A stretch of 64,000 nucleotides of DNA from an uncultured Flavobacteriaceae bacterium (GTDB lineage Bacteria; Bacteroidota; Bacteroidia; Flavobacteriales; Flavobacteriaceae): NCBI GenBank assembly GCA_943787365.1, contig CALSMD010000006.1, forward strand, positions 509,984 through 573,983, in the 5' to 3' direction. The notes beneath the pieces were generated by a model that searched no databases, was not told where the DNA came from, and saw only the letters and a list, made by a program, of their open reading frames with translations. Within the stretch, counting starts at the first letter, position 1. Every line of letters begins with the position of its first letter. Of the stretch, positions 385 to 10,128 are shown one piece after another. The position numbers were made by a program, and so were the translations under genes.

Positions 385-1608
385 ATGAAAAAACTATTTT
401 CTAATCAAGTTATAAATATTTTTTTAAGAGGTACAACTGTGCTTTTGAAATTTGTACTTTCAGTTTTAGTGATAAAAAAACTGAGCATTGAAGAATTTGG
501 TGTTTTTGGGCTGTTTCAGAGTACTATTATTATTTCAACATTCATTCTTGGGTTTGACTTTTACAATTTTACATCAAGAGAGATCTTAAAAGAAAATGCT
601 AAAACAGTTGGTTATTATTTTACAAACCAACTTGCGTTTCATTTGGTTGTTTATATCCTTATTATCCCATTAACTTATTTTGTTTTTATTTCAGGGATAA
701 TACATTCTAACTATTTGTGGTTATTTGTGTTAATATTAATTTCTGAGCATTTGTCACAAGAACTATATCGCTTACTTATAATATTGAATAAATCAGTAGC
801 TGCCACAACATTACTTTTTCTTAGATCAGGAATATGGGTGCTGTTTTTATATTTTTTTTGGACTCAAAGTATATTAGCGGTTAACATTCATTCAATTTTA
901 TTATTGTGGTTGTTAGGAGCAATATCCTCGGTTTTACTGGGCTTTAAATTTGTCAACCTGAATAGAATTAATAAAATAAACTTTAAATGGATTATTTATG
1001 GGATTAAAGTTTCACTTCCTTTTTTCATAGGCACAATTTTATATAAAATTATTGAATTTTCAGGAAGATATTTTTTAAGCTTTTATCACTCCGAAACAGA
1101 AGTTGGAGTGTACACGTTTTTTACTAGTATATCAAACATTCTATTTGTGTTTGTTCAAACAATAGTTATCATAGAGCTATATCCTAAACTAATAAAAGCA
1201 AAAAATACTAGTCAAGATGAGTTTTTTATAACGCTGAAGATCTTTAAAAAACAAATAATCCAATATTCTATAATAGGGATTGTATTATCTATTATTTGCA
1301 TATATCCGCTCTTATGGTTTTTAGATAAAACAGCTTTATTTGAAAGCGTTTTATCCTATTTATTATTACTTGTTTCTACATTGTTTTTTTGTTTTTCATT
1401 TATATCTCATTATGCTCTGTATGTAAATAAGAAAGACCTCGACATACTAAAAGCTACAATAATTAGTTTTGTATTCAATATTTCCTTAAGTTTTGTATTA
1501 ATACCTAGATTTGCAGTCTTAGGTGCGGCCTTAGCGCAGCTATCAACTTTTGCTATTATGTTTATTGTTAAATCTACCTATTGGAAAAAACAGAAATTAA
1601 AGTTATGA
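385..1608 (+). CDS. Wzx-type oligosaccharide flippase
   Basis: An integral membrane protein of 407 residues, almost entirely hydrophobic, with about 11-12 predicted membrane helices, which is the usual size for the MATE/PST flippases that move lipid-linked repeat units across the inner membrane. The N-terminus (GTTVLLKFVLSVLVIKKLS, then FGVFGLFQS) is the familiar first-helix region of polysaccharide export proteins. It is the first complete gene of the surface-polysaccharide block and its stop overlaps the next start as ATGA, so the two are probably translationally coupled. The 210 bp upstream show no convincing gene. The repeat unit it carries cannot be read from sequence. A second, only distantly similar flippase lies at 25504-26976. 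Confidence 0.85.
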   Translation: MKKLFSNQVINIFLRGTTVLLKFVLSVLVIKKLSIEEFGVFGLFQSTIIISTFILGFDFYNFTSREILKENAKTVGYYFTNQLAFHLVVYILIIPLTYFVFISGIIHSNYLWLFVLILISEHLSQELYRLLIILNKSVAATTLLFLRSGIWVLFLYFFWTQSILAVNIHSILLLWLLGAISSVLLGFKFVNLNRINKINFKWIIYGIKVSLPFFIGTILYKIIEFSGRYFLSFYHSETEVGVYTFFTSISNILFVFVQTIVIIELYPKLIKAKNTSQDEFFITLKIFKKQIIQYSIIGIVLSIICIYPLLWFLDKTALFESVLSYLLLLVSTLFFCFSFISHYALYVNKKDLDILKATIISFVFNISLSFVLIPRFAVLGAALAQLSTFAIMFIVKSTYWKKQKLKL

Positions 1609-2615
1609 ATATATTTATATGTCAAACACCTTTTCAGTTGTTTTATGCTAAGGAGATAATTAACCATTTTACTGTTGCAAACTCAGTCGAAAATACGTCT
1701 TTAGTTTTTCACTCCAATTTAAATCTTATCCCGAATGATACTGCCAACAAAATTGAATATTTCAACTTAGGTAATGAACGAGGCGTACTTAATAGATTTA
1801 TTCGATTCAAAAAAGCCAAAAATAAAGTTGATAAAATTATAAGAACTCCAGCACAAAATATTAGTATTTTTATCCCCCATACATCTGGAGTATTAACGAA
1901 TTATATTTTTAATCTTAAAAACACATTTGATAACAAAAAGGTAAGTCTTAATTTGTTTTATGAAGGTATATTGTATTTATATGACTATCAAGAGCATTTC
2001 CAAAGACATCATATCAATAGGTTTTTATTAGGTCTCTTATTGGGCTTCATATACAGGCGTGATAAAATTATTCTTCCAAAGGATTCTGAAAAAGTTAAAC
2101 ATATATACACTCCGATAAAGAAGTTTACAACAGGTGATCGCTCAAAAACAATAGAGCTTCCGTTTGAACAAAAATCCCCTATAGAAATTAATCCAAACCA
2201 ATATTTAATTTTAGGAGGTCCAGTTGTTTTTTTGAGAAAATTTTATGAGGACTGTATTCGTCAAATAGCGAAATCATCAAATCAAGACTTTATAATTTAT
2301 TATAAAGGACACTCATCATTTGAAACGCATTATACTCAGTACAAAACGATGTTTCATGAAATCGCATCTAAACACAAGGTAAACTATGTTTTACTCAGTA
2401 GTAATGAACCAATAGAAAGTTTGATAGAGCAAATCAAACCCTCTGTAATCTATTCATACTATTCCTCTGCTTTATTAAATATTAGTTTAATGTTTCCAAA
2501 TAATTTTAAAATAATATGCTACTTAGATGAACTCAATCCCCATTTTAAAATGTTCAAATCAATTTTTAATCACTTTAACATTAAAACTATTTTTGTTAAT
2601 CAAAGTTTAAAATAA
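1605..2615 (+). CDS. Sialyltransferase-like glycosyltransferase (polysialyltransferase/GT52-like)
   Basis: I start the gene at the ATG at 1605, giving 336 residues, because the track start is a TTG inside the previous gene and ATG 1605 makes an ATGA overlap with its stop. The N-terminus MNIFICQTPFQLFYAKEII is typical of bacterial sialyltransferases of the polyST/GT52 type. Three short motifs of these families appear in order: an acidic-Gly motif (FYEG, near residue 120), a basic-His motif in the HP position (YYKGHSS, near 235) and a Ser-Ser motif (YSYYSSALL, near 285). The known families transfer sialic acid or related nonulosonates from CMP-sugars. The exact donor and linkage are not readable. 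Directly abutted by the Wzy gene. Confidence 0.65.
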   Translation: MNIFICQTPFQLFYAKEIINHFTVANSVENTSLVFHSNLNLIPNDTANKIEYFNLGNERGVLNRFIRFKKAKNKVDKIIRTPAQNISIFIPHTSGVLTNYIFNLKNTFDNKKVSLNLFYEGILYLYDYQEHFQRHHINRFLLGLLLGFIYRRDKIILPKDSEKVKHIYTPIKKFTTGDRSKTIELPFEQKSPIEINPNQYLILGGPVVFLRKFYEDCIRQIAKSSNQDFIIYYKGHSSFETHYTQYKTMFHEIASKHKVNYVLLSSNEPIESLIEQIKPSVIYSYYSSALLNISLMFPNNFKIICYLDELNPHFKMFKSIFNHFNIKTIFVNQSLK

Positions 2616-3836
2616 ATGGTGTTTCAAATTTTGTTTTCCGGGGTCGTCTTCTATTTCATTAATAAAGTTTTTAGTCTCAAAAACCTTTTCAACCCACTCG
2701 TGTTTATACTAATTTTTCATTTTATTTTTTTCTATGTTGGGTTATTTTATAAAGACATGTACAGTCATGTTAAAATTGAAAGCTTCACGATCTTTTTAAT
2801 AAACTATTCTTTTATTTCAATTCTTACAGGGGGTATACTTTCTCGCTACATAATGCAAAAGTTCAGACCCTATGTCCGATTTCCAATAGTTAACGCATCT
2901 CTTTTAATTAACAATAAAACTACGATAGTCGGGTTTATGTTTTTAATACTAGGATTGTTGTGTACGCTTAATTACATTATCAGCGCAGGAGGAATTATAA
3001 TTTTTATGGAGGATGTTGAAAACACTAGAATTATTACCAGAAAAGGAAAGGGGCTTACTATTCAGTTAGCAATAAATTTCTTTACATATGGTCTATTGAC
3101 AATTTTAATGATTAAAAGCTCAACTCCATTTAAATTATTGTTTTTAATAATTGTTTGTTTTTTTGTTTTGTCTTTCGGAAATAGAGGACCAGCTCTTTTT
3201 TTAATGGTATTCGCATTGTATATTTATCAATCTGTAAACAAGGTTGAGTTTTCTTTAAAAAAAATAGCTATTTATGGCTTTGTTATATTTTGTTTAATGG
3301 TTTTGTTTGGCTCTTTAAGAACGAATTATGATGCAGACCTCCTATCATTGTTTAAAGCTCGATTTGCGTGGAGACCTTTTGTTAATATTCAAAACTTTCA
3401 ATTTGTAATTGATTATTTCCCATCAAAACACGACTACCTATATGGCTATACTTATATTGTTGACCTACTTATGTTGACTCCAGGAAGTCACCCGAATAGC
3501 GGAACGTATTTAAAAGACTTGATGGGCCTTCAGTTTGATGGAGGAAGTATAACACCGTCCTACCTAGGGATGTCATATGTAAACTTTGGAGTCATGGGCT
3601 TAATTTTTTCTCCGCTTCTTCTTGGATTTATTTCTAATACGTTTTATGAAGTTTATGTTGCGAAACGTAACTTAAACAAGCCCTACAATCTAATTTTATT
3701 AATTTTAATTTCATTTAACTTTGCGTCAATTGTGTCTTCAGGAATAATGACGGTGTTAGTTCAAAACATTTCCGTTTTAGCTCTTGTTCATTTTTTATTT
3801 ATTATACTAATAAAATTACTTAAGAAAGTCACCTAA
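2616..3836 (+). CDS. Oligosaccharide repeat-unit polymerase (Wzy-like)
   Basis: A polytopic membrane protein of 406 residues with about 10-12 helices, starting on the base after the stop of the sialyltransferase-like gene. It resembles the oligosaccharide repeat unit polymerase family: SFGNRGPALFLMVFALY in the middle, then a large loop with RFAWRPFVNIQNFQ, GYTYIVDLLML and FDGGSITPSYLG, followed by NFGVMGLIFSPLLLGF. In Wzx/Wzy pathways such proteins join undecaprenyl-linked repeat units at the outer face of the inner membrane. The neighbours (flippase, transferases, initiating transferase) fit that pathway. The sugar linkage formed is unknown. Confidence 0.8.
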   Translation: MVFQILFSGVVFYFINKVFSLKNLFNPLVFILIFHFIFFYVGLFYKDMYSHVKIESFTIFLINYSFISILTGGILSRYIMQKFRPYVRFPIVNASLLINNKTTIVGFMFLILGLLCTLNYIISAGGIIIFMEDVENTRIITRKGKGLTIQLAINFFTYGLLTILMIKSSTPFKLLFLIIVCFFVLSFGNRGPALFLMVFALYIYQSVNKVEFSLKKIAIYGFVIFCLMVLFGSLRTNYDADLLSLFKARFAWRPFVNIQNFQFVIDYFPSKHDYLYGYTYIVDLLMLTPGSHPNSGTYLKDLMGLQFDGGSITPSYLGMSYVNFGVMGLIFSPLLLGFISNTFYEVYVAKRNLNKPYNLILLILISFNFASIVSSGIMTVLVQNISVLALVHFLFIILIKLLKKVT

Positions 3837-3839
3837 AAT

Positions 3840-5333
3840 ATGAATAACACATTTTTAAACAGAAAAACAAACACCACCCTAATAATCGTCCTGATTTTTA
3901 TTTACCTAGGTTGTATATGTCTCTCTGCTTTATCAATCGACAGTACTAATTTTTTGTTCAAAAACCAGTTTGATTTTATTGAACTTTCTTCAGCAGTTCT
4001 TTTTATTATTTCAATCATTGTTGGTTTTAAAGATATTAGGTTATTTGTTGTTTTTATGGTTTTCAATATTTTGGCACTTCCCGCCTGCGTAGATAATTTT
4101 TTCCCGAGCATTTTAATCTCAGCTTTAAATGATTCTAAGCAAGTCTATTTTCCAATGATAACCCATATCGATATTTATCTTGTTTTAGGAATTATTAAAT
4201 ATTGGGATAAAAAAGACAGGTTCTTTTTAGACTTTAGGAGATTAGAGACCAGACTCTTTTTTTTGTTATTATTGTTACTAGTGATATCAATTACTGGAAA
4301 CATATTCAAACACAACAATAAATACGACATTAGTTTAATTCTTTCCCATTCCTACCACTTAAGGTATTTATTATTATTAATGCTATTGTTTAGGAATACA
4401 TCTGTTATTAAGCACAAAAAGCCATTGTTTATAGGAGTATTAGTGACTGTGGGGTTTCTAATTCTTGAATCATTTTCGTATAGCTATTTCTTTTACTCTC
4501 CCTCACGTCTCACGAGTGGCACCTTAGGACATAATATGCTTGCAAACATCCTTACTTCAATTTGTTGTTATTTCTTCTTCTTAATTATAAGAAAACATAT
4601 AGCATTGAAATATTTGTTATTGGTTCTATTAATCATCTGTAGTATTGTGTTAACCAAAACAAGAAGTGCTATTTTCCTGCTTGTTACATACCTCCTTTTT
4701 GAGCTAATTAGACACATTATTCTTTTGTGTAAACAGAAAACTAAATTTAAATTTTCTTATTTGTTTTTCATTGTACCGTCATTATTGTTTATTTCTTTTT
4801 TCATCTATACACAAAACGAACGGCTATCGTTCCATAATTTCAAAATTGAGAAAATTAACTTCTCAGAAACAAGTTTAAATAAAATAATTGTTCTGGAACA
4901 AAATGACTTTAACGCTTCGTTGATATTAAGATTAAATCATTTTCAAACCTCACTAAATATGATAAACGATCAGCCATTATTTGGAATTGGGCCCGGGCGA
5001 TGGAACACCTATAAGCAGACATATGGTTCTAAAGAACTTAAACTCATGGACTCACATAATGATCTTTTGGCTACAATGTCACAATATGGAGTGCTTACAG
5101 GTCTTTTTTTGTGTTTTGTTATTTATTTTTTGCCTTTATTTATGGTCGTAAAAATGAAAAAAGAATCAATAATTTTGAACAACAAAATGAAATATTTGTT
5201 TTTGATTAGTTTTGTAATGTCCTTTACTGGACTAACAAATACAGGGCTTTTTAAACATCAAATATTTGGGTTTCTTTCATTAATCTTGATCTTAACAATT
5301 TTTAATGCAAATCAATTAAAGCTTAATAAATGA
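3840..5333 (+). CDS. O-antigen ligase family membrane protein (Wzy_C)
   Basis: A 497-residue membrane protein with about 12 helices. A long loop leads to the O-antigen-ligase signature region: DQPLFGIGPGRWNTYKQTYG, followed by the SHNDLLATMSQYGVLTGLFL segment, which carries the conserved histidine-containing loop of WaaL/Wzy_C proteins. Such proteins either ligate polymer to lipid A core or polymerise; with a Wzy candidate just upstream, ligase is the more likely role here, but this is not certain. It begins 3 bp after the Wzy stop and its TGA overlaps the next ATG (ATGA). A decayed relative lies at 6404-7643. Confidence 0.8.
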   Translation: MNNTFLNRKTNTTLIIVLIFIYLGCICLSALSIDSTNFLFKNQFDFIELSSAVLFIISIIVGFKDIRLFVVFMVFNILALPACVDNFFPSILISALNDSKQVYFPMITHIDIYLVLGIIKYWDKKDRFFLDFRRLETRLFFLLLLLLVISITGNIFKHNNKYDISLILSHSYHLRYLLLLMLLFRNTSVIKHKKPLFIGVLVTVGFLILESFSYSYFFYSPSRLTSGTLGHNMLANILTSICCYFFFLIIRKHIALKYLLLVLLIICSIVLTKTRSAIFLLVTYLLFELIRHIILLCKQKTKFKFSYLFFIVPSLLFISFFIYTQNERLSFHNFKIEKINFSETSLNKIIVLEQNDFNASLILRLNHFQTSLNMINDQPLFGIGPGRWNTYKQTYGSKELKLMDSHNDLLATMSQYGVLTGLFLCFVIYFLPLFMVVKMKKESIILNNKMKYLFLISFVMSFTGLTNTGLFKHQIFGFLSLILILTIFNANQLKLNK

Positions 5334-6388
5334 GGATAGCAATTTTAGGAACCAAAGGAGTGCCCAACAACCATGGGGGTTTTGAGCAATTTGCAGAATA
5401 TCTTTCTGAATACCTCGCAAATAGAGGCCATGACGTTTCAGTTTATAGCCCTCACAACCACACTTACCAACACAAAAAATGGAAAGGAGTTAATATTATT
5501 CATCAATACGATCCAGAGATTATATTAGGTTCTGCAGGACAATTTATCTATGATTTAAACTGTATACTTCACATTAGAAAGTCAAATTTTGATATTGTAT
5601 TACAATTAGGATATACCAGTAGTTCAATTTGGGGGAAACTTTTGCCCAGAAAATCAATTATTGTTACAAACATGGATGGTCTAGAATGGAAAAGGTCTAA
5701 ATATAACAAACTAACCCAAGTTTTTTTAAAATTTGCTGAGGCTTTAGCAATAAATACAAGTGACTTTTTAATCTCAGACTCAATCGGAATTCAAAACCAC
5801 TTGAAAGAAAAATATGACAAACGGTCTGAATATATTGCTTATGGTGCAAATGTTTTTTTGAATCCTGAAGAACGTATAATTAAAGAGTATCACATTTCAC
5901 CAAATAATTATAATTTATTAATTGCAAGATTAGAGCCTGAAAACAACATAGAAACAATACTAGACGGAGTTGAGCTAAATAATAATGGAATGCCATTTTT
6001 AGTGATTGGTAAACACAACACTAAATACGGAAAGTATCTATTAGGTAAGTTTAAATCAAACAGTAAAATTATATTTCTTGGAGCTATTTATAATCAAAGT
6101 CATTTAAATAACCTAAGATATTATTCCAACTTATATTTTCACGGCCACTCTGTTGGAGGAACAAACCCATCACTACTAGAAGCCATGGCGTCAAGCGCTT
6201 TAATCGTTGCTAACGATAATATTTTCAATAGAAGCATTCTTAATGATGATGCGTTTTACTTTAACAACTCTATCGAAGTATCTCAACTCCTTAACAAAAT
6301 AAAACTCCAGCACACAAGTCTTGTGAAAAACAATAAAAGCAAAATAGTCAATCAGTACACTTTGAGTGCTATAAACGGGCAAATATGA
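5330..6388 (+). CDS. DUF1972/GT4 glycosyltransferase (rhamnosyltransferase-like), frameshifted C-terminus
   Basis: The start MRIAILGTKGVPNNHGGFEQF is the signature of the DUF1972 N-terminal domain of WchF/Cps2T-type glycosyltransferases, which often add L-rhamnose. The GT4 C-terminal half has ARLEPENNIETILDG and the donor-binding GHSVGGTNPSLLEAMA segment. The protein stops at 352 residues in KIVNQYTLSAINGQI. Skipping one A at about 6381-6383 restores the usual ending (GQYEKFLKECLKK) to a TAA at 6417-6419, which then overlaps the ATG of the next gene. This points to a one-base insertion or a sequence error that removes about 11 residues. The catalytic regions are intact, so activity may be kept. 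Confidence 0.8.
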   Translation: MRIAILGTKGVPNNHGGFEQFAEYLSEYLANRGHDVSVYSPHNHTYQHKKWKGVNIIHQYDPEIILGSAGQFIYDLNCILHIRKSNFDIVLQLGYTSSSIWGKLLPRKSIIVTNMDGLEWKRSKYNKLTQVFLKFAEALAINTSDFLISDSIGIQNHLKEKYDKRSEYIAYGANVFLNPEERIIKEYHISPNNYNLLIARLEPENNIETILDGVELNNNGMPFLVIGKHNTKYGKYLLGKFKSNSKIIFLGAIYNQSHLNNLRYYSNLYFHGHSVGGTNPSLLEAMASSALIVANDNIFNRSILNDDAFYFNNSIEVSQLLNKIKLQHTSLVKNNKSKIVNQYTLSAINGQI

Positions 6389-6403: not shown

Positions 6404-7643
6404 ATGTTTGAAAAAATAAAAAACAGTACATCAATCCGCTACTTTGAGTATTCAGCATACTTACTCACGGCTTCATTTTTTTTAGGTCATGCAGCACTTT
6501 CTGTTTGTTATGTCTTTTTTTTTATTGACATCTTTTAAAAGCGTTATAAAGAACTTTAGTTTAAAAGAATTTTTTATCGAATAAAGCCTTAATTATTTCC
6601 TTGTATATTTTTTATTTTTAATTTAATAATAGTAATAATTTTAGGAGACCAGCCCAAACGATGTTTTAAAAACTGAAAAGATTCTCTGCCTACTTATTTT
6701 TCCTATAATCTTTTTTTCAACAAAAGAACATTTTCAGGGACCCAAATCACTCTTTTTTAATATAAAGAAAACCTTTGTCTTAACAGCTTTTTTTTACGTT
6801 TTCTATTAGTTTTGCTTATGGTCTTTACAGGGTTTTTTTATGCTGAAAAACGCTTTAAATAGTATATATATCACCTATGACCATTTAGCTGACTTATTTG
6901 GTGTGCAACCCTTGTATTTGGCTGTATTTTACCTTATGGCAGTTATATTTAGCATTGATATATCTAAAAGTAAGCCTCGCCAAAGGAATAAATATTTTAT
7001 AATTAGCGGTATTCTGGTTTGTGGAATAGTATTGTTGTCTTCTAGGACAGGTTTACTTCTTTCTCTAATAGTATTAATTGTAATAGGGTCTAAAATTAAA
7101 TCCAAAATAAATAATAAAACAGTTTTTTCTGTTTCTCTATTGTTCTTAATCTTATGTCTAATTCTAACATTTTCTATACCCACATTAAAAAATAGAGTTT
7201 TAAAGTTAAATGAAAATATATCTTCTTATTCGGGACTTTCATTCAGAACTAAAATATGGAAAAATACCATTTTTGTTTTTCAAGAGTCTTCTTTATTTGG
7301 ATACGGGTTATACCTATCTCAAGACAAATTAATGAATCAGTATATAAAAACAAATTTTCGAAGAGGATATATATACAATCTAAACACTCATAATCAGTAT
7401 TTACAGACTCTATTAGACACAGGACTAATTGGGCTGATAATCTTAATTTTTATGTTGGTTTACCCTATTAGAGATATAAAAAACACTCCAATTACAGAAC
7501 TGCTCTTTACAGTCATAATTCTTGTATCGCTCATTCCCGAATCTTTTTTTTTAAGACAATATGGGGTTTTGTCCTATAGTTTTTTTTCCTGTGTTTTTCA
7601 AGTTTCTAGAAAAAAATTGGCGCCCAAAATAAAACTCTCGTAA
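6404..7643 (+). pseudogene. Decayed O-antigen ligase/polymerase (Wzy_C-like) gene
   Basis: Pieces of one ligase-like protein are spread over all three frames. From ATG 6404 the frame reads MFEKIKNSTSIRYFEYS and a hydrophobic helix, then stops at 6536-6538. Further pieces in other frames read IKNFSLKEFF and, later, SPNDVLKTEKILCLLIFP. The last and longest piece is the track ORF from 6840, with ITYDHLADLFGVQPLYLAV, SSRTGLLLSLIVL and NTHNQYLQTLLDTGLIGLII, the conserved core and His loop of the family. The total span fits a protein of about 410 residues. At least four frame changes are needed, several near T runs of 8-9 bases. Translation of a useful protein is unlikely unless these are sequencing errors. 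Confidence 0.8.
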
Positions 7644-7779: not shown

Positions 7780-8769
7780 ATGTCCAAAACCATACTTATT
7801 ACCGGTGCCGCAGGATTTTTAGGATCCCATTTATGTGATCGCTTCATCGTTGAAGGGTTTAGAATTTTGGGGATGGATAATTTTATCACAGGTGATAAAG
7901 ACAACATCCAACATTTATTTGACCACCCAAATTTTCATTTCATCGAGCATGATGTAACAGTTCATATAGACATTAAAGAACCCATAGACTATATTTTACA
8001 TTTTGCATCCCCTGCCAGTCCTATTGATTATCTAAAAATACCCATCCAAACTCTCAAGGTAGGCTCCTTAGGTACGCATAATCTGTTGGGACTTGCCAAA
8101 GCCAAAAATGCACGCATACTCATTGCTTCTACATCTGAGGTCTATGGAGACCCCTTGGTGCACCCACAATCCGAAGATTATTTTGGAAATGTGAATTCTA
8201 TTGGCCCAAGAGGGGTTTATGATGAGGCCAAGCGATTCCAAGAAGCCATCACAATGGCGTATCACCGGTTTCATGGACTGGAAACCCGTATTGCACGCAT
8301 ATTTAACACCTATGGACCTCGAATGCGTCTGAACGATGGGCGTGTGATACCCGCCTTTATGGGGCAAGCTCTTAGGGGAGAGAATCTATCTGTGTTTGGG
8401 AAAGGAACTCAAACACGTTCCTTTTGTTATGTAGATGATTTAATCGAAGGAATTTATCGTTTGTTATTTAGTGATTACTCTAATCCAGTCAATCTAGGAA
8501 ACCCTGATGAAATCACAATCATTGAGTTTGCCGATGAAATTTTAAAATTGACCAACTCCAATCAAAAGATAATTTTCAAATCACTTCCGGAAGATGACCC
8601 TTTAAAACGCCAGCCAGACATTACATTAGCAAAAAAATTGTTAAATTGGACACCTCAAATATCTCGAGCTGAGGGAATGAAACTAACGTTCAATTATTTT
8701 CAGAACTTATCGAAGGAAAAATTAACCAAGATTGATCACAAAGATTTTTCGAAACACATAAAACAGTAA
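7780..8769 (+). CDS. UDP-glucuronate decarboxylase (UDP-xylose synthase), extended SDR
   Basis: The 329-residue product has the NAD-binding [10 protein letters not shown] motif at the N-terminus, the [11 protein letters not shown] segment typical of UXS enzymes, a catalytic STSEVYGDP segment and YDEAK (the YxxxK pair), and later IFNTYGPRM. These enzymes convert UDP-glucuronate to UDP-xylose (or the 4-keto intermediate) in the cytoplasm, supplying a donor for polysaccharide synthesis. It has its own likely promoter. Its TAA is followed at once by the GTG start of the initiating transferase, so the two form an operon. A related NDP-sugar epimerase is the alternative, but the ASPASP segment favours the decarboxylase. 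Confidence 0.87.
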
Positions 8770-10128
8770 GTGAGTTTATTTAAACACGGTCGATATTCAG
8801 GATTTATTAAACCCATTTCGTATGTTACTGATTTGGCGCTTATAAATGCGTTTGGTCTTCTTTATTTTTTCAAAGAAATAAACACCCTCACTTTCATAGC
8901 ATTTATCTCTTTTGGATGGGTTGTAACAACTTTTGTATCAAGGTTTTATGATGTTCATAGGTTTTCTACTGTCATTAGAATTCTAAAGTTATTGTTCAGA
9001 CAAATTCTTCTCTTTAGTTTATTGATATTTGCGTATTCAGGACTTAACCTCAATCTTAACCTCAATCCAAAAGAAATTATTAAGTATATATTAGTGTCGT
9101 TTTTTTGCATTTCGATTTTTAAATACTTAATGTTTTATTTACTAAAAAGGTATCGATCAATTTTTAAAGGGAACATTCGGAAAACCATTATTTTAGGGAA
9201 ATCTCCTCAATCTAAATCATTAGAAAAAGTTTTCTTAGACACGCCCGCATACGGATTTTTAAATAAAAAAATTGTTTGTTTTAAAGACCGATCTCAACTA
9301 AATTTAGAGGCTACTTTTGATTACATCTCAAAAGAAGGAATTGATGAAATTTTTTGTTCTATTTCAGAACTTAATGACGAAGACCTTTCGGCGGTGGTAA
9401 ACTACGCAGATAACAACCTTAAAGTCGTTAAATTTATCCCCGACAGAAGCAAGGTGCTGTCAAAAAAATTACAACATGACTATTACGGAATTATTCCAAT
9501 TCTAACGTTTAGAACCATTCCCTTAGACGACCCTTTCAGCTCAATATTAAAACGCTTGTTTGATATCGTCTTTTCTTTAGGTGTTATTATATTTATTTTG
9601 TCCTGGCTTACCCCACTAATCGCTCTGGTCATTAAAGTCGAATCTAACGGCCCTATCTTTTTCACCCAATTACGAAATGGCTATAACTTTAAATCGTTTA
9701 GATGTTTTAAATTTAGATCCATGGTTAAAAACCCCAATGCCGATTTAGTTCAAGTCTCTCGTGACGACGACCGTGTTACTATGTTCGGGCAACTACTGCG
9801 TAAAACAAGCCTTGATGAGATGCCTCAATTTTTCAATGTACTTTTAGGAGACATGTCAGTAGTAGGGCCACGCCCTCATATGTTGAGTCATACAGAGATG
9901 TATGCCAAAAAAATTGACAAATTTATGGTGCGTCACTTTGTAAAACCCGGAATCACTGGCTTAGCTCAAGTGAGTGGGTACAGAGGTGAGGTTGAGTCTG
10001 ACGAAGATATTATAGGACGTGTCCAGCACGATATTTTTTATATCGAAAACTGGTCCTTTTTCTTAGATTTAAAAATTATTTTTCAAACCTTTTTTAATAC
10101 GATTAGAGGCGAAGAAAAAGCATATTAA
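8770..10128 (+). CDS. Polyprenyl glycosylphosphotransferase initiating polysaccharide synthesis
   Basis: This 452-residue protein uses a GTG start immediately after the preceding stop. The N-terminal half has four to five membrane helices and a CoA-binding-like soluble domain; a further helix at about residues 265-285 precedes the bacterial sugar transferase domain. That domain contains FKFRSM, DDDRVTMFGQLLRKTSLDEMPQ, the DMSVVGPRPHM motif and the KPGITGLAQVSGYRG motif of WbaP/WcaJ enzymes. These transfer a hexose-1-phosphate from a UDP-sugar to undecaprenyl phosphate at the inner membrane, the first step of the repeat unit. It closes the locus. Glucose is the commonest substrate in this type, but the sugar is not proven. 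Confidence 0.9.
   Translation: MSLFKHGRYSGFIKPISYVTDLALINAFGLLYFFKEINTLTFIAFISFGWVVTTFVSRFYDVHRFSTVIRILKLLFRQILLFSLLIFAYSGLNLNLNLNPKEIIKYILVSFFCISIFKYLMFYLLKRYRSIFKGNIRKTIILGKSPQSKSLEKVFLDTPAYGFLNKKIVCFKDRSQLNLEATFDYISKEGIDEIFCSISELNDEDLSAVVNYADNNLKVVKFIPDRSKVLSKKLQHDYYGIIPILTFRTIPLDDPFSSILKRLFDIVFSLGVIIFILSWLTPLIALVIKVESNGPIFFTQLRNGYNFKSFRCFKFRSMVKNPNADLVQVSRDDDRVTMFGQLLRKTSLDEMPQFFNVLLGDMSVVGPRPHMLSHTEMYAKKIDKFMVRHFVKPGITGLAQVSGYRGEVESDEDIIGRVQHDIFYIENWSFFLDLKIIFQTFFNTIRGEEKAY

Follow-up and report, generated by a model that had tools for sequence, protein, structure and literature searches.

A candidate nonulosonate transferase beside a predicted aminotransferase-free nonulosonate cassette in an uncultured Flavobacteriaceae bacterium

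In the six-enzyme pathway to pseudaminic acid (Pse), PseB-C-H-G-I-F, the product of PseB is aminated by PseC, acetylated by PseH and freed of uridine diphosphate (UDP) by PseG before condensation and activation (PMC5109656). We analysed a surface-polysaccharide locus in a window of 64,000 nucleotides (G000:C6:509984-573983, contig C6 being CALSMD010000006.1) from the metagenome-assembled genome of an uncultured Flavobacteriaceae bacterium (GCA_943787365.1; 2.3 Mb, completeness 88.8%, contamination 7.5%). We focused on the protein encoded at 1605-2615, for which the evidence as a nonulosonic acid (NulO) transferase is strong, and on the NulO cassette that ends at the left edge of the window. 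On balance, the results favour an enzyme of the GT-B sialyltransferase superfamily that transfers a NulO, activated with cytidine monophosphate (CMP), from the adjacent cassette to a lipid-linked repeat unit, with a 7-hydroxy trideoxy NulO as the predicted sugar.

The window protein resembles the GT38 polysialyltransferases, such as SiaD of Mannheimia haemolytica (5wc6/5wcn; PF07388), in its Pfam family, its top fold match, the acidic-Gly motif, the invariant His and the SS motif. It differs from them in very low identity, in a Ser for the Pro of the HP motif, in its setting (a Wzx/Wzy locus, not one for a homopolymer capsule), and in a donor that is probably not N-acetylneuraminic acid (Neu5Ac). 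The GT52 and GT80 sialyltransferases (NST, 2yk4; PmST1, 2ii6) belong to the same superfamily and gave weaker profile matches. KpsS1, a GT118 pseudaminyltransferase, is also a bacterial capsule NulO transferase (cited in PMC12887879); its family is KpsC-related and retaining, whereas the window protein gave no KpsC match in the Pfam search, the PDB profile search or the best 50 fold matches.

The cassette shares with the Pse pathway PseB and PseF equivalogs, a PseH-like GNAT protein and a NeuB-family synthase, but it has an RmlD-like short-chain dehydrogenase/reductase (SDR) in place of PseC and PseG. By sugar chemistry (PseB plus ketoreductase chemistry, 9-deoxy, no 7-amine), the predicted product resembles the trideoxy fusaminic acid in the O-chain of Fusobacterium nucleatum ATCC 25586, which differs from it in bearing a 5-acetimidoyl group (Vinogradov 2017, cited in PMC7371886 and PMC13014188).

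Family, fold and motifs of the transferase

The open reading frame (ORF) encodes 336 amino acids without interruption; its ATG start shares 4 bp (ATGA) with the end of Wzx, and Wzy begins immediately after its stop codon. The single Pfam family matched was PF07388 (residues 2-299, E = 1.3e-7), at 31.9 bits against a gathering cut-off of 23.3; since the score lies above the curated cut-off, the resemblance exceeds chance. The GT52 family PF07922 gave no match at E values up to 1 in the same search, and an NCBIfam search returned no credible match. Next, a profile of the window protein and 14 distant relatives (15 members) was compared with the PDB. It matched the SiaD polysialyltransferase at 2.5e-16, the GT52 enzyme NST at 6e-6 and the Pasteurella GT80 sialyltransferases (PmST) at 1e-5, and every match with E < 1e-4 was a sialyltransferase of one of these three families. 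Because the profile contained stronger PF07388 members, the window protein itself was folded. The AlphaFold (AF2) model had a mean predicted local distance difference test score (pLDDT) of 78.4 and a predicted template-modelling score of 0.79, and Foldseek placed 5wc6 first among PDB entries (E = 1.4e-8), with the Pasteurella sialyltransferase 2ii6 fourth, among many GT-B enzymes.

In the 15-row alignment, Gly121, His236 and Glu271 were invariant and Ser287 nearly so. The window protein carries the acidic-Gly motif (YEG), His236 followed by Ser, and SS near residue 287. The residue after His236 is Pro in most homologues and Arg (H-R) in relatives from loci L051, L039, L046 and L042. As this Pro is not conserved, H-S is within-family variation and does not on its own point to a new donor. 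One PF07388 match, in L048, was set aside, its ORF reading by eye as a UDP-N-acetylglucosamine (UDP-GlcNAc) 2-epimerase.

These results agree in large part with an initial annotation of the sequence, which had read sialyltransferase-like motifs with HP changed to H-S and proposed a NulO transferase in a surface-polysaccharide locus. The motifs are present, and family, predicted fold, adjacent cassette and Wzx/Wzy setting all support the proposed function. Structure prediction led to a polysialyltransferase as best match, and of the two profile families named, PF07388 was matched and GT52 was not. NulO synthesis genes are present in the genome and no other family gave a better match, the two points on which the proposal had been staked beforehand. 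As a hint to the donor, the H-S motif proved to be poor evidence.

Linkage to the cassette was also assessed. Locus L051 has the same order of cassette, Wzx, polysialyltransferase-family protein and Wzy, with identities of 72-84% for the cassette proteins, 33% for Wzx and 26% for the transferase, and of 13 PF07388 loci in the family for which long flanking sequence was read, 7 had a NulO synthase within about 10 kb. Linkage and family thus suggest the tie between the transferase and its donor. The protein might instead be a GT-B transferase that uses another CMP- or UDP-sugar and came to lie near the cassette through locus shuffling, as polysialyltransferase-like folds are similar to many GT-B enzymes and several PF07388 relatives in the family have no NulO synthase nearby. 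We regard this as improbable: the profile matches with E < 1e-4 were exclusively sialyltransferases, and both here and in L051 the gene sits between Wzx and Wzy, immediately following the cassette; moreover, apart from the initiating enzyme, the locus encodes just one other glycosyltransferase, which is rhamnosyltransferase-like.

The NulO cassette and its predicted sugar

From left of the window into the locus, the genes run rmlB-A-C-D (named by eye), a lipoprotein gene, PseB, PseF, the RmlD-like SDR, the NeuB-family synthase and the GNAT, followed after 210 bp by Wzx, the transferase, Wzy, a Wzy_C protein and a GT4 enzyme (Table 1). Most of the left-hand genes, from rml to the GNAT, overlap or nearly overlap. 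The synthase, two genes upstream of Wzx, is the sole NeuB-family gene in the genome and scores below both the NeuB and the PseI cut-offs. For the GNAT, PseH was the best equivalog at 55.8 bits, below the cut-off of 93.1, so that by its sequence it is PseH-like rather than PseH.

The missing steps of the Pse pathway were sought genome-wide. In this genome of 88.8% completeness, no DegT protein reached the PseC cut-off (best 231.8 against 423.5 bits); the best PseG match scored 18.6 bits against a cut-off of 153.6, and no hydrolysing NeuC was found above cut-off (best 42.5 against 235.9 bits). The DegT genes on contigs C1 and C6 were rejected as PseC, both being far below cut-off. The one on C6, which adjoins a gene read by eye as waaA-like, matches a relative in L086 at 448 bits and therefore looks like a conserved gene of another function.

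The initial annotation had found the left-edge fragment similar to PseH, advised a search for pseB-pseI or neuABC genes to the left, and considered a non-sialic donor possible. The fragment is indeed a GNAT nearest to PseH, albeit under the PseH cut-off. PseB, PseF, a NeuB-family synthase and the GNAT were found on the left, while the synthase fell short of both family cut-offs and PseC and PseG above cut-off were absent from the genome. The suggestion about the donor is supported by a cassette that, with its RmlD-like SDR and with PseC and PseG missing, is neither of the neuraminic acid (Neu) nor of the standard Pse type.

With a ketoreductase-type SDR next to the synthase and PseC and PseG missing, the simplest reading is a C4 ketoreduction, and hence a hydroxyl rather than an acetamido group at C7. 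What we observed are the genes with their families and linkage, the fold as predicted, and the conservation; the reductase step, the use of a CMP donor, and the identity and stereochemistry of the product are inferred, as follows. PseB, an inverting UDP-GlcNAc 4,6-dehydratase/5-epimerase, would form a UDP-4-keto-6-deoxy-L-N-acetylhexosamine, and the RmlD-like SDR would reduce its C4 keto group, replacing the amination by PseC. Once UDP is lost, the sugar would be condensed with phosphoenolpyruvate by the Asp-type NulO synthase, and PseF would add CMP. The product would be a 5-acetamido-3,5,9-trideoxy-nonulosonic acid with a hydroxyl at C7, and the GNAT might acylate this acid; the transferase would move it from the CMP donor to the lipid-linked repeat unit, which Wzx would flip and Wzy polymerise. 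Our confidence in this non-canonical sugar is moderate, and canonical pseudaminic acid as the product is not supported by the gene content. Processive transfer of Neu5Ac from CMP-Neu5Ac, the alpha-2,8-polysialyltransferase activity of GT38, is unlikely on indirect grounds, because NeuC does not reach its cut-off in this genome and because the locus is of the Wzx/Wzy type.

The F. nucleatum 25586 O-chain contains 6-deoxy-L-AltNAc (2-acetamido-2,6-dideoxy-L-altrose) together with the 3,5,9-trideoxy NulO (PMC13014188; PMC7371886). The former would be the expected reduction product if the new hydroxyl is altro. Our search of the literature accessible without subscription found no gene assignment for trideoxy fusaminic acid. 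The Shewanella sfm flagellin genes were set aside as a precedent; the accessible part of their description reports a singly acetylated 274-Da Pse-like residue and describes no RmlD-type gene.

The donor could also be Neu5Ac, legionaminic acid (Leg) or another known NulO, with the SDR/PseB pair making a separate deoxysugar of the same glycan. The synthase scores slightly better with NeuB than with PseI and has a Gly of the Neu/Leg type, and a LegC-type aminotransferase above cut-off is encoded on contig C4. Nevertheless, the NeuB score is far under its cut-off, NeuC above cut-off is absent, the CMP transferase is of the PseF type, and the polysaccharide locus that holds the LegC gene is a different one and has no synthase, so we give this explanation little weight. 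Besides the LegC-type gene, that second locus (L006:7842-10820) encodes a dehydratase of 403 aa and an acetyltransferase of the hexapeptide type, which makes the set bacillosamine-like; near it lies a frame-broken UDP-GlcNAc 2-epimerase gene.

Related cassettes in other genomes

We scanned 84,980 species genomes with the synthase and retrieved 80 loci (55-83% identity) from Bacteroidota, Chloroflexota, Omnitrophota, Bacillota, Pseudomonadota and candidate phyla, the closest relatives being from Flavobacteriaceae. Enough upstream sequence was available for 75 loci. In 66 of these the gene immediately upstream of the synthase was the SDR, and on inspection about 5 more had it close by; it was absent from four loci (L069, L100, L106 and L108). 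The cofactor and YxxxK motifs passed an automatic check in 57 of 70 SDR relatives, and on inspection the failures were mostly truncated or had misplaced starts. Among the 55 loci whose flanks extended 5 kb in both directions, PseB was found in 52 and any DegT in 11. When Pfam families were counted for 120 neighbours from 14 loci, NeuB occurred 13 times, cytidylyltransferase 13 and GNAT 10, with DegT and PseG not among the 25 commonest families; as these loci were picked mainly for having no DegT in an earlier search, the tally is a check on that search only. PseC and PseG above cut-off were found in none of 18 host genomes of related cassettes, and hydrolysing NeuC above cut-off in 5 of 19 genomes, the window genome not being one of them.

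The clade synthases carried Asp at the position of NeuB Glu25, an active-site residue (PMC6795526), in all 78 with a readable motif, and CNTNY in 80 of 80. Non-clade NulO synthases in the same data mostly had Glu at position 25 where the motif was readable. The clade was split from 12 other synthases with 100/100 branch support in a tree with long branches.

These data bear on an ordinary CMP-Pse donor, for which the aminotransferase and hydrolase would be encoded elsewhere, the GNAT would be PseH and the SDR would serve another sugar. PseB and PseF exceed their equivalog cut-offs, PseH is the best equivalog of the GNAT, three full-length DegT proteins are encoded elsewhere in the genome, and DegT occurs in some related cassettes (L057, L063 and L099). 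We still consider such a donor unlikely, as no DegT here reaches the PseC cut-off, the 18 related genomes lack PseC and PseG above cut-off, the synthase is well below the PseI cut-off (221 against 340 bits) and without the Pse-type Phe, and the SDR is so regularly placed immediately upstream of the synthase. In the variant cassettes L057:5307-9112, L063:5283-9097 and L099:6166-9968, an aldo/keto reductase, an SpsF-like cytidylyltransferase and a DegT aminotransferase are inserted near PseB and the SDR, which suggests a differently decorated NulO. The Halanaerobacter cassette (L110:5389-11065) is preceded by small ORFs that resemble, by eye, the flagellar FlaG/FliS genes, suggesting that its sugar is used on flagellin.

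Several observations weigh against the 7-hydroxy NulO and its proposed transferase. The transferase model reached a TM-score of only 0.55 with 5wc6, and a single-sequence PDB search returned only TagH (E = 0.09, taken as chance), the protein being too divergent for direct homology to solved enzymes. A profile-recognised polysialyltransferase was present in only 1 of the 80 cassette loci (L051), and other strains thus use other enzymes. No UDP-sugar hydrolase was found in the genome, where PseG is missing and the weak NeuC match falls in a frame-broken gene, and one of the three DegT aminotransferases could act in trans. The GNAT is hard to place if the pathway makes no 4-amine. Lastly, the position of the PseI Phe, reported to sense the C2 configuration with Gly as the Neu/Leg type (PMC7371886), is Gly in the synthase, which fits badly with an L-altro substrate.

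Where cassette loci lack a recognised polysialyltransferase, a Pfam-orphan family of about 450 aa fills the transferase slot between membrane proteins (L052:12993-14345, L054:12990-14342, L059:13297-14643 and L053:11607-12941, the last from Winogradskyella thalassocola DSM 15363). Its profile matched KpsC 3-deoxy-D-manno-octulosonic acid transferases weakly (E = 0.0017), but the Winogradskyella protein in this slot gave a low-confidence model (pLDDT 55) resembling UDP-GlcNAc 2-epimerases, with no clear identification. The family could represent a further NulO transferase or else supply the hydrolase that is missing. The synthase was not found in 17 other genomes of the genus (E 1e-60), and 396 genomes of the phylum Bacteroidota yielded no close homologue of the transferase, only weak partial matches. 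Such sparse distribution is consistent with a horizontally shuffled surface-polysaccharide locus; horizontal shuffling is usual for such loci.

Locus layout and implications

The WcaJ-like initiating transferase marks the end of the locus. It is plausible that the repeat unit has about three sugars, given two transferases and the initiating enzyme. A second Wzy_C (ligase-like) gene at 6404-7643 looks broken, with short ORFs at 6404-6538 and 6489-6584 followed by a 267-aa ORF with a Wzy_C domain at 6840-7643.

Table 1. Positions of the cassette and locus genes and the matches that identify them
Feature	Coordinates	Numbering	Strand	Evidence
PseB	505970-506998	contig C6		PseB equivalog 497.4 bits, cut-off 407.8
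PseF	507000-507695	contig C6		PseF equivalog 277.7 bits, cut-off 205.7
RmlD-like SDR	507692-508588	contig C6		TGxxGxxG and YxxxK both kept
NulO synthase	508566-509630	contig C6		NeuB 244 bits (cut-off 400); PseI 221 bits (cut-off 340)
GNAT N-acetyltransferase, 3' end	1-174	window	+	Acetyltransf_3; whole gene G000:C6:509627-510157; closes the NulO cassette
Wzx-type flippase	385-1608	window	+	PF01943, E 1.4e-8
Candidate CMP-nonulosonate transferase, PF07388/GT38-like GT-B protein	1605-2615	window	+	Pfam, motifs, predicted model, fold match, profile
Wzy-type repeat-unit polymerase	2616-3836	window	+	TIGR04370 65.5 bits, cut-off 40
Wzy_C O-antigen ligase/polymerase-like membrane protein	3840-5333	window	+	PF04932, E 8.2e-16
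GT4-type glycosyltransferase, rhamnosyltransferase-like (DUF1972)	5330-6388	window	+	PF09314, E 1.6e-22; NF046071 Cps2T 191.6 bits, below cut-off 500
NAD-dependent sugar-nucleotide epimerase/dehydratase-like SDR	7780-8769	window	+	PF01370, PF16363; no equivalog cut-off reached among those listed
WcaJ-like initiating sugar-phosphate transferase	8770-10128	window	+	PF02397, E 2.1e-63; TIGR03025 343 bits, cut-off 295.6

Bacterial NulO pathways are at present predicted from the gene sets for Neu, Leg and Pse. We tentatively propose, as a possibility that we hold with somewhat less than even confidence, that an aminotransferase-free pathway of PseB, an RmlD-like ketoreductase, an Asp-type synthase and a PseF- or SpsF-type CMP transferase makes 7-hydroxy-9-deoxy NulOs in Bacteroidota, Chloroflexota, Omnitrophota and other phyla, that it explains trideoxy fusaminic acid, and that several unrelated enzymes attach the sugar, the window transferase being one of them. 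If true, this would add a fourth gene set, with ketoreduction in place of amination, and would explain a NulO class with a single reported structure (as of PMC7371886). Genome surveys could then predict 7-hydroxy NulOs, and the window protein would be a defined candidate for their transferase.
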